A stretch of DNA of 64,000 nt, from assembly GCF_944393015.1 (NCBI RefSeq), contig NZ_CALXYQ010000002.1, positions 62,001 to 126,000 of the forward strand, given 5' to 3'. The position numbers were made by a program, and so were the translations under genes. Position 1 is the stretch's first letter, and every line of letters begins with the position of its first letter. Below the pieces are notes generated by a model. It ran no database searches, was not told where the DNA came from, and worked only from the letters and a program-made list of their open reading frames with translations. This document shows positions 52,616 to 60,854 of this stretch, one piece after another. This DNA is from an uncultured Brachyspira sp. GTDB lineage: Bacteria; Spirochaetota; Brachyspiria; Brachyspirales; Brachyspiraceae.

Positions 52616-53326
52616 ATGCTTAGTGATATTTTTACAGATATACAGAAAAATAAAAAAGAATGGCTTAAAAGCAAAGAGGGTGATGAATTTGAAGACAGAT
52701 TTGAAGCCTCTTTAAAACGTCATGGCTTTAATAGGAGAATGTCTTCTGATAAAGAAATTAAAAATATACTTTCTTCTATAAAAAATGATATTTTAGATAA
52801 AAGCTCTGATAAAGTGATTGATAATGTTTATGCTTTAGAAGATAAGAGTATGGAAAACTGCTTTATATGTCAGCCTTATGGAAGTCAGAATTTTCCAGAT
52901 TTTCTAATATTTACAGCTAAAAAAATTATAGCTATAGAAATAAAATACAGCAGTAATAAATCTTCTAGTCCTATGTGGAATAGTAATTTACCTAAATCAA
53001 ATGCTATTTATATATTTGGCTCTTACGGCAGGGGAGATGTTACTTTCTTTATAGGAGATGATGTTCTTCCTATGAATGAACGTAATGAATTAATAAAATT
53101 CTTTGAAGAGATAAAAAAACTTGAAGATAATTTTAAAAATAAAATGAAAAAAGAAAGCAGGAATAATTTATTTGCATATAAATTTGATAGGGGATTTAAT
53201 GTTTATGTTAGGCGTGCTTATGAGCAGAATAAAACTATAAATGAGAATGCAAAAATAGATTATTTTCTACATGAAGATAGAATAAAATGCGAAAATAATG
53301 TTATAGAGTTTTGTAATAGTTTGTAA
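52616..53326 (+). CDS. Probable type II restriction endonuclease (PD-(D/E)XK)
   Basis: A 236-residue protein without a signal peptide. The nuclease core is clear: Asp95 in PDFLIF and Glu108-x-Lys110 in AIEIK, the PD-x(12)-ExK arrangement of restriction enzymes; Gln/Tyr-rich QPYGSQNFPDF precedes it as in several type II enzymes. It is followed after 16 bp by an N6-adenine methyltransferase. It should cut DNA at an unmethylated site, which is unknown. The start is apparently leaderless, which may keep synthesis low until the methylase is made. Confidence 0.8.
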   Translation: MLSDIFTDIQKNKKEWLKSKEGDEFEDRFEASLKRHGFNRRMSSDKEIKNILSSIKNDILDKSSDKVIDNVYALEDKSMENCFICQPYGSQNFPDFLIFTAKKIIAIEIKYSSNKSSSPMWNSNLPKSNAIYIFGSYGRGDVTFFIGDDVLPMNERNELIKFFEEIKKLEDNFKNKMKKESRNNLFAYKFDRGFNVYVRRAYEQNKTINENAKIDYFLHEDRIKCENNVIEFCNSL

Positions 53327-53342
53327 AGATTAAGAGAGATAT

Positions 53343-54566
53343 ATGCAAGAAGAGTACACGAAAGAAAGTTTTGATTATCTTAAAAATACGGATATAGAAA
53401 AAAGAAAAAGATTAGGGCAGTACTTCACTCCTAAAACTATAAGAGATTTACTATTAAAAGAATTAGTATCTATTTCAGAAAAAAAAGATAATGTAAAAAT
53501 ACTTGATCCTGCATGCGGAAGCGGAGAGTTTCTTTTATCTTGTAATGAATATTTTGAAAGTCCTAAATTATATGGATTTGATATTGATGAGAGTTTAGTT
53601 GCTATATCCAAAAAACTAATAAATAATGCAGATATAAAATGTTTGGATACTTTAAAGCTTGATACTGAAAAATCTATTAAATATGATTATGTTATTGGAA
53701 ATCCTCCATATTTTGAATTCAAACCAGATAAAGAATTAAAGAAAAAGCATAATGATATAATAAGCGGAAGAGTTAACATATTTTCTATATTTATAAAATT
53801 AGGTTTGGAACTTTTAGAAGACGGCGGATATTTGGCTTATGTAGTGCCTCCTTCTATGAATAATGGAGCTTTTTTCAGTAAATTAAGAGAATATATTATG
53901 AACATAAGCAGTGTTGAATATCTTCATATTGTAGACGGTTCTGATAATTTTTATATGGCCAATCAAAAGGTTATGCTATTAATACTCAAAAAAACTAATA
54001 GTCATAAAAATAAAAAATATATATTCTCAAAAAATGATATTACAATATTTACAGAGGATAAAGCATTTTTAAATAAAGCGTATAAAGATACTATAAGCTT
54101 AAAAGAAATAGGCTATGAGGTAAAAACTGGAAGCATTGCTTGGAATAAATATAAAGAAAATCTTACTGATGATAAAAATAATTCTATACCTTTAATATAT
54201 TCATCTAATATAGTTGATGGAAAAATACTTATACCTAATAAAAGAAAACTTCAGTATATAAGAAATATTCCAAAAGAATTTATTATAAAGAATAATGTTA
54301 TAGCTGTTAATAGGGTAACAGGATCTCATAAAAATATAAATATAAAATCAGCAATAGTAAAAGAAAAAGAGTTCGTATGTGAGAATCATGTAAATGTTAT
54401 ATATCCTTTAAGTAATTATAATAAAGATTATAGTTTGGAATATATTTATAATGCCTTAAATGATAAAGATAATATAAAGGTGCTAAGTCTTATAACAGGA
54501 AACACTCAGGTATCAAAGACAGAATTAGAAAGGCTTCTTCCTATAAGGATTATTGATAAGGTATAA
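53343..54566 (+). CDS. N6-adenine DNA methyltransferase (type II, gamma class)
   Basis: A 407-residue methyltransferase that protects host DNA. RLGQYFTP (24-30) is motif X, DPACGSGEF (55-63) motif I for AdoMet, and NPPYF (120-124) the catalytic motif IV; their order (X-I-IV then target-recognition domain) is the gamma, M.TaqI-like class. Residues ~250-400 should read the target. GAGAG precedes the ATG. A DUF285 gene starts six bases after the stop. Confidence 0.92.
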   Translation: MQEEYTKESFDYLKNTDIEKRKRLGQYFTPKTIRDLLLKELVSISEKKDNVKILDPACGSGEFLLSCNEYFESPKLYGFDIDESLVAISKKLINNADIKCLDTLKLDTEKSIKYDYVIGNPPYFEFKPDKELKKKHNDIISGRVNIFSIFIKLGLELLEDGGYLAYVVPPSMNNGAFFSKLREYIMNISSVEYLHIVDGSDNFYMANQKVMLLILKKTNSHKNKKYIFSKNDITIFTEDKAFLNKAYKDTISLKEIGYEVKTGSIAWNKYKENLTDDKNNSIPLIYSSNIVDGKILIPNKRKLQYIRNIPKEFIIKNNVIAVNRVTGSHKNINIKSAIVKEKEFVCENHVNVIYPLSNYNKDYSLEYIYNALNDKDNIKVLSLITGNTQVSKTELERLLPIRIIDKV

Positions 54567-59028: not shown

Positions 59029-60330
59029 ATGTCAAAATTAATCATTAAAAATTTAGGCCCAATAACAGATTTTGAAATGGATATAAAAGATTTTAATTTG
59101 ATTATTGGAGAGCAGGCAGTAGGAAAAAGTACGATTTGTAAATGTATATATTTTTTCAGAACTTTAAAAGACGATGTTACCTCTTTTATTGTTTCTCTAT
59201 TATTAAATGACAAAGAGAATAATATATCATCAAAAGAACGGTTAATAACAAAATTAGATATTAAAGCAAAAGATTTGTTTATAAAAATATTTGGAGATTT
59301 AGAATATACCGATTTATTTATTTTTTATAAATACAAAGAATCTATTGACATGAAAATAGAATATGATGAAGATAAAAAATTGATTATATCTTATAGTAAA
59401 AATATATTAGATATGATATATCTTTTTTATACTAGAATAAAAAAGATTATGTATATGAAAAAGGATATGCTAGATTTTAATTTTCTTACAACAATTATAT
59501 CTGGTTTATTAAATGAAAATATATTTGATGATGAATATAAAACTTATTATATACCTGCTGCAAGAAGCTCATTATCTTTTATTAATAATCAGAAAACTAA
59601 ACTTAATTACGAAGCTATTGATTTAGTTAATTTGAAATTTATACAATTTATAGAAAATATACAGTATATATTTAGTGATGGAATAAAAGGACTTAATAAT
59701 AAAATAGAAAATAAAAAAATGAGGCATGATATAATACAATTATCTAAAAAAATTATTAATCTTATGAAAGGTGAATATTTTTCTGATAATGGAATTGAAT
59801 ATATATTATTGAATTCTGAAAAAAAAGAGAAAATACCTGTTAATTATATATCTTCAGGACATCAAGAAATACTATGGCTTTTGAATATTTTATATTATCT
59901 TATCATAAGAAATGAAAAGGCTTTTGTCATTATAGAAGAACCTGAAGCACATTTATATCCTAAAATGCAGAAAGAAATTGTAGATTTTATAGTAAATTTT
60001 ATGAATATCACAGGAAGTACAGTTTTTATAACAACTCATAGTCCTTATATATTAACGAGTACTAATAATTTATTATATGCCGGCAAAATAAGAAAAGAAA
60101 AAAATAATGATGATGTTAATAAAAAGATTGATAAATTATTTGGTAAATATGGTATTATTGATACTGATAAAATAAATGCATTTAAACTATATCTTAAAGA
60201 TTATAAAACATCATATTCAAATTTGATAAATGAAAACAGCGGAGAAATCATGACTGAATTAATAGATGAAATTTCTGATTATATAAATGAAACTTATACT
60301 AAATTAATTGATATAGAAGAAAATTTATGA
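59029..60330 (+). CDS. ABC-type (AAA_15/OLD-like) ATPase
   Basis: A 433-residue ATPase. LIIKNLGPI begins the domain; Walker A is GEQAVGKST (27-35). The second half has the signature NYISSGHQEILWLLN, Walker B with glutamates FVIIEEPEAHLYP, and switch ITTHSPY. The middle (100-250) is a helical insertion. OLD-like ATPases of this build are common in phage-defence pairs. GAGGAT precedes the ATG. Its stop overlaps the next ATG by four bases. No TOPRIM domain is seen. Confidence 0.85.
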   Translation: MSKLIIKNLGPITDFEMDIKDFNLIIGEQAVGKSTICKCIYFFRTLKDDVTSFIVSLLLNDKENNISSKERLITKLDIKAKDLFIKIFGDLEYTDLFIFYKYKESIDMKIEYDEDKKLIISYSKNILDMIYLFYTRIKKIMYMKKDMLDFNFLTTIISGLLNENIFDDEYKTYYIPAARSSLSFINNQKTKLNYEAIDLVNLKFIQFIENIQYIFSDGIKGLNNKIENKKMRHDIIQLSKKIINLMKGEYFSDNGIEYILLNSEKKEKIPVNYISSGHQEILWLLNILYYLIIRNEKAFVIIEEPEAHLYPKMQKEIVDFIVNFMNITGSTVFITTHSPYILTSTNNLLYAGKIRKEKNNDDVNKKIDKLFGKYGIIDTDKINAFKLYLKDYKTSYSNLINENSGEIMTELIDEISDYINETYTKLIDIEENL

Positions 60331-60854
60331 TTAATAATAATTTTATAAAACAATTAAAAAAAGATGAAACTATAACTTTATCTGATTCTCAAACTAAAGT
60401 TTTTATATACGCTTTAGATGATATTGATATTATTAAAGTTGATAAAGGTATACTTCCTGATAATATACAAAAGTGTGATTATTTAGCATATAGAAAACAA
60501 GATAAAACTTGCTTTATAGAACTTAAGGGGAAGAAAATTTATGAAGCTTATAAGCAAATAATATCATCAATTAATTATATATTTAATGATAAAGATTTAT
60601 CTTTTTTAATTAATGATGTTAAAACATTATATGCCTATATAGTAAGTAAAGAAAAAAATAAAATACCTAAAGGAAGCGACAGCAAAGAAAGGGAATTGGC
60701 AAATATTTTATATAGAAAGTCTAAAGAAAAATCAAAAATAAATAATGCAGTTAATTTAGTTAAATATGTAAGAACTGTGTCTAATAATGATAAAAGAGAA
60801 TCATCAGATGAAAACAATTTAATTTGCAGTTCAAAAAATCCTTTGAAACTCTAG
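60327..60854 (+). CDS. Predicted PD-(D/E)XK-like partner of the ATPase
   Basis: A 175-residue protein of no family I can name. A nuclease-like site is visible: Asp51 (CDYLAYR), Glu65-x-Lys67 (FIELKG) and Gln77 (AYKQI), the D-x(n)-ExK-Q layout of many restriction and defence nucleases. The C-terminal third is charged and helical. The 4-bp overlap with the ATPase gene suggests a two-protein complex. Function is inferred only from motif and context. Confidence 0.6.
   Translation: MINNNFIKQLKKDETITLSDSQTKVFIYALDDIDIIKVDKGILPDNIQKCDYLAYRKQDKTCFIELKGKKIYEAYKQIISSINYIFNDKDLSFLINDVKTLYAYIVSKEKNKIPKGSDSKERELANILYRKSKEKSKINNAVNLVKYVRTVSNNDKRESSDENNLICSSKNPLKL

Follow-up and report, generated by a model that had tools for sequence, protein, structure and literature searches.

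The two overlapping genes at positions 59,029 to 60,854 of the window, the whole 64,000-nucleotide stretch of DNA from an uncultured Brachyspira sp. that was analysed, probably constitute an abortive-infection system of the WonAB kind, where an ATPase sensor would license an RNA-cutting nuclease and so halt translation. Judged from sequence comparison, the pair is conserved as a unit and patchily distributed in the manner of defence genes, making it a candidate phage defence. The preliminary description had proposed an ATPase-nuclease pair of defence type, which is supported by the co-occurrence of the two genes and by the invariant nuclease-like site of the second. Its suggestion of an unnamed type did not stand, the wider family being already present in PADLOC as PDC-M29A/B and having an experimentally tested relative in WonAB (PMC12137116).

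The first gene was described beforehand as an OLD-like ABC ATPase with Walker A, signature, Walker B and H-switch, and all of these motifs were recovered in the sequence:

59029..60330, + strand: WonA-like / PDC-M29A-like OLD-type ABC ATPase, 433 aa (ORF, Pfam, PADLOC, profile comparison)
59107..59130, + strand: Walker A GEQAVGKS (K33); G27, G32, K33 and S34 invariant in 9/9 orthologues
59551..59565, + strand: IPAAR motif with R179; I175, P176, A177 and R179 invariant in 9/9 orthologues
59851..59868, + strand: ABC signature SSGHQE (275-280); S275-S276-G277 and Q279-E280 invariant in 9/9 orthologues
59929..59946, + strand: Walker B IIEEPE (E303/E304), invariant in 9/9 orthologues
60037..60039, + strand: H-switch H337 (THSPY), invariant in orthologues
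60055..60327, + strand: C-terminal extension of the ATPase, ending ELIDEISDYINETYTKLIDIE; profile comparison aligns it with the C-terminus of M29A

The protein matched AAA_15 (8e-26, spanning residues 2-341) and AAA_21 (2.6e-20) in Pfam, where neither TOPRIM nor DUF4435 was found in it. The best-scoring PADLOC model was AriA (2.7e-30), a match that stops at residue 342 and leaves the C-terminal extension outside the profile. Other PADLOC matches were the PD-T4-4 ATPase (7.4e-20, over most of the length), PDC-M29A (1.8e-17, best stretch 295-432) and, more weakly, PtuA and GajA. The C-terminal piece searched alone against the PADLOC models gave no match.

The second gene encodes the partner, with the following elements:

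60327..60854, + strand: WonB-like / PDC-M29B-like small protein, 175 aa, probable PD-(D/E)xK nuclease
60327..60330, + strand: ATGA, 4-bp overlap of both ORFs (sequence)
60441..60443, + strand: D39, acidic residue invariant in 19 relatives
60477..60479, + strand: D51, first acid of the D..ExK motif; D, but E in three distant relatives
60519..60527, + strand: E65-L66-K67, ExK motif; E65 and K67 invariant in 19 relatives
60555..60557, + strand: Q77, in the helix that follows the ExK strand; invariant in 19 relatives

The residues D51, E65-x-K67 and Q77 are present as first reported, and the four named positions are invariant in nine genus orthologues that are 57-98% identical. When 19 relatives with identities as low as about 20% were compared, the only invariant positions were D39, E65, K67 and Q77, with position 51 being D, or E in three. 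D39 lies outside the D51-ExK-Q set and was absent from the earlier account. The resulting set (D39, D/E51, E65, K67 and Q77) offers defined targets for mutational tests. No HNH, TOPRIM or DUF4435 domain was identified in the partner by the Pfam and PADLOC searches, as had been proposed, and it matched no housekeeping family in the family searches. Taken by itself, it gave nothing usable in searches of Pfam, NCBIfam, PHROGs or PDB sequences, a profile search of PDB sequences returned nothing credible, and tblastn against phages and plasmids returned no matches; in PADLOC there was a weak match to DrmD (4.6e-4).

An AlphaFold2 model of the partner built from the 19-sequence alignment reached pLDDT 90.6 and pTM 0.89, and replaced a poor one (pLDDT 57.5) made from nine close sequences. 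The order of its elements is strand 33-37, short helix 38-42, strand 52-56, strand 60-66, helix 71-87 and strand 100-108. Foldseek comparison of this model with PDB and viral models gave no match below 0.001. A second-look structure list is led by FokI, McrC, a CdiA-CT nuclease, BsmI, Can2 and a NucS-type enzyme, and PD-(D/E)xK nucleases dominate it, at low Z values of about 5 and with unrelated acetyl-CoA carboxylase rows intermixed. The modelled fold is likely, though not proven, to be of the PD-(D/E)xK nuclease class.

Among 26 genomes of the genus both genes were identified in nine and neither in 17 (ATPase presence scored at E at most 1e-10). The same nine genomes hold both genes, side by side in every case, as a co-occurring pair should, and since the pair recurs in 9/9 of the genomes carrying either gene it is not a chance arrangement. 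The four-base overlap between the ATPase (59029-60330) and the 175-residue partner (60327-60854) was confirmed; this ATGA overlap is the same in three close orthologues, and the other clade within the genus has overlaps of 8-11 bp. Over 21 pairs compared, the ATPase always comes first and the nuclease second, and the two genes overlap by up to 14 bp or are separated by up to 4 bp. Two clades of the pair exist in the genus. The first comprises the window, G005, G006 and G023, all at one shared site with an acetyltransferase gene on one side and a small zinc-ribbon-like gene on the other, and the second occupies several sites, including positions next to recF and next to arg genes. The immediate neighbours of the window pair are ordinary genes, with only a probable restriction-modification pair about 4.5 kb upstream. 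This unit (window 52616-54566) comprises a 236-aa protein with a nuclease-like PDF..EIK motif and an Eco57I-type adenine methyltransferase, and is probably a type II restriction-modification system; the corresponding site of G005 and G006 lacks it.

The pair is missing in five close relatives in which the same flanks are separated by 154-167 bp, and some of these empty sites retain a piece of the nuclease gene:

60816..60854, + strand: 3' end of the nuclease gene, surviving as a scar in related genomes that lack the pair here

This remnant was identified in G009, G024 and G025, with 34-35 of 38 aligned bases matching in G024. The scar score was reached by none of 2000 shuffles for G009 and G024, by one for G025 and by 16 for G007, which is marginal; against 2000 shuffles no nuclease 3'-end remnant was found at the G004 empty site. 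A 21-base piece of the tail would be expected by chance 0.01 times in the window at three mismatches or fewer. The encoded tail, ICSSKNPLKL, is conserved as protein in copies at other sites, and for this reason it belongs to the nuclease gene. Because the shared 3' end is part of that gene, loss of the pair best accounts for the empty sites; a simple insertion is a less likely history, given that the shared end encodes a tail conserved elsewhere. G007 and G009, which lack the pair at this site, carry the other pair clade elsewhere in the genome. In L076, L080 and L082 the scars follow the acetyltransferase gene and retain the final 22-38 bases of the nuclease gene. Such scars provide a simple record of defence-gene turnover.

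The wider family was reached through profiles. A profile built from the nine partners and run against 393 Spirochaetota genomes outside the genus picked up two distant relatives; one is itself an ATPase-partner pair (G103, locus L041; PDC-M29A 1.7e-93, PDC-M29B 4.2e-6) and the other matches PDC-M29B (6.4e-7). A further match of this profile, in G001, was rejected as it falls in a tetratricopeptide-like protein. The PDC-M29B model finds ten further Spirochaetota genomes, none in the genus, and gave no direct match to the window partner. In profile comparison the genus partner is linked to the intermediates at E 9.7e-12 and these to M29B at E 8.9e-9, the direct comparison of genus partner and M29B giving E 1.4e-5 to 3.6e-6; no column-shuffled control reached the partner scores. 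The direct comparison of the ATPase with M29A gave E 1.3e-21, with 0/100 shuffles as high. Distances of ATPase and partner correlate (r 0.92 over 91 pairs), a value that shared ancestry alone could give. In the ATPase tree a split with 99% SH-aLRT separates the M29 side from the side with the window gene, which groups with the pair of a viral contig (L101) and a faecal pair (L102) opposite the M29 members. Details of this tree are unsure because of long branches, and in the tree of the partner, a short protein, the same split is unresolved. A few copies are irregular: in G365 the partner, on a 4.7-kb contig, lacks an adjacent ATPase, the M29 copies in G319, G350 and G352 look truncated or incomplete, and the G345 ATPase is split.

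Relatives of the pair occur in diverse surroundings. In the viral contig L101 the pair sits between phage structural genes; in L044 it is on a mobilizable plasmid with a serine recombinase next to it; in L043 it is preceded by a DUF262-like gene and directly followed by a methyltransferase gene and a further gene, which from their sequences can be read as type III mod and res. In L102 a SIR2-like gene matching PDC-S21 is found upstream. This record (MT836320.1) is labelled 'Bacteriophage sp.' and contains bacterial genes of an ordinary kind together with a small cluster of defence genes, the SIR2-like gene and then the pair; it is probably a bacterial contig. Pairs inside surface-polysaccharide biosynthesis clusters were seen in several unrelated bacteria (L045:5139-6702, L041:4103-5784, L060 and L062), and some other Spirochaetota pair loci likewise lie within surface-polysaccharide genes.

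The tested member of the family, WonAB of the Vibrio cholerae WASA-1 prophage, was reported in 2025 to act by abortive infection, bringing translation to a halt (PMC12137116). Its protection needs both genes, ATPase and nuclease mutants being inactive, and the essential residues are K34, R182, E300 and H333 of WonA and K71 of WonB (PMC12137116). The C-terminal extension of WonA is predicted to hold WonB (PMC12137116). By analogy with that system the window ATPase would be the infection sensor, binding the small nuclease through its C-terminal extension. Phage infection would presumably induce ATP-dependent changes in the ATPase that license the PD-(D/E)xK nuclease, and the latter might then cut host RNA, conjecturally tRNA or rRNA. 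Translation would stop as described for WonAB, growth would halt and phage production would be aborted, and both genes should be required.

A somewhat unlikely alternative is a DNA-directed pair like Septu or Gabija, where the ATPase would load the nuclease on phage DNA, cut without translation arrest. PD-(D/E)xK nucleases are mostly DNA cutters, the structural neighbours of the partner are largely restriction and repair enzymes, and PtuA and GajA are among the weaker matches of the ATPase; however, the partner belongs to none of the HNH, TOPRIM and helicase classes, and WonAB, the nearest tested arrangement, arrests translation and leaves genomic DNA intact (PMC12137116). It is unlikely that the Brachyspira-type pair forms a branch of its own within the ATPase and PD-(D/E)xK family, with a trigger or RNA target peculiar to it, in a family that, being found repeatedly in surface-polysaccharide clusters, would perhaps guard or co-vary with phage receptor loci. 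A release mechanism as in PARIS, in which the ATPase sequesters the nuclease until a phage protein frees it, is very doubtful: AriA sequesters AriB until triggered (PMC12409363) and is the model that the ATPase matches best, but the TOPRIM/DUF4435 nuclease AriB is absent, the AriA match ends before the C-terminal extension, and WonB is not toxic without WonA, which ruled out simple sequestration for WonAB (PMC12137116). A housekeeping or repair role, to which the conserved chromosomal site shared among ordinary genes by four genus genomes would point, is hardly probable at all in view of the patchy presence (9/26), the two divergent clades at several unrelated sites, the deletion scars and the plasmid, prophage and restriction-modification contexts of relatives elsewhere.

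On present comparison the pair belongs, as a divergent spirochaete representative, to a known kind; the WonAB-like label depends on architecture and on the M29 link, WonA and WonB being known by description. It would extend to spirochaetes a family of ATPase-nuclease pairs tested so far in one Vibrio prophage, and links it to the PADLOC candidate PDC-M29. The pair shares with WonAB a two-gene operon with the ATPase first, an OLD-type ABC ATPase that lacks TOPRIM and carries a C-terminal extension, a small, probably PD-(D/E)xK partner with the ExK lysine at 67 (71 in WonB), and relatives on mobile elements. The spacing of K34-R182-E300-H333 in WonA is 148/118/33 and that of K33-R179-E304-H337 in the window is 146/125/33, and R179 may be the counterpart of R182. 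Differences are the spirochaete host, the chromosomal site and the size of the partner (175 aa, against 16.1 kDa for WonB). In the viral contigs, phages and plasmids that were searched for WonAB no copy was found, the matches being limited to the query contig, two faecal records and Persicobacter.

With PDC-M29A/B the pair shares a homologous ATPase and, by profile comparison, a homologous nuclease in the same order, with short overlaps or gaps and the D..ExK..Q site. The M29 ATPases have a first gap (to IPxxR) of about 90 and a second of at least 150, the reverse of the 146/125 pattern of the window gene, and the M29B nucleases have the ExK lysine at 88-98 instead of 67. Both the motif spacing and the ATPase tree agree better with the WonAB arrangement than with the M29 core. 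The family 'OLD-ABC ATPase + novel REase' of Krishnan et al. 2020, as it is cited in PMC12137116 and PMC12409358, has the same two-protein layout and fold classes as far as its description goes. PD-T4-4 has an organisation similar to WonAB (PMC12137116), but the window partner matches no PD-T4-4 nuclease model in PADLOC. Gabija differs in that the window ATPase has no TOPRIM and no UvrD-type GajB was found (Pfam, PADLOC), and Septu in its HNH nuclease PtuB, absent here, the partner having no HNH (Pfam, PADLOC). Finally, PARIS has a related OLD-type ATPase, as seen in the AriA match (2.7e-30), and differs in the AriA hexamer with sequestration and in AriB, a TOPRIM/DUF4435 tRNase with the small, probably PD-(D/E)xK protein in its place here.
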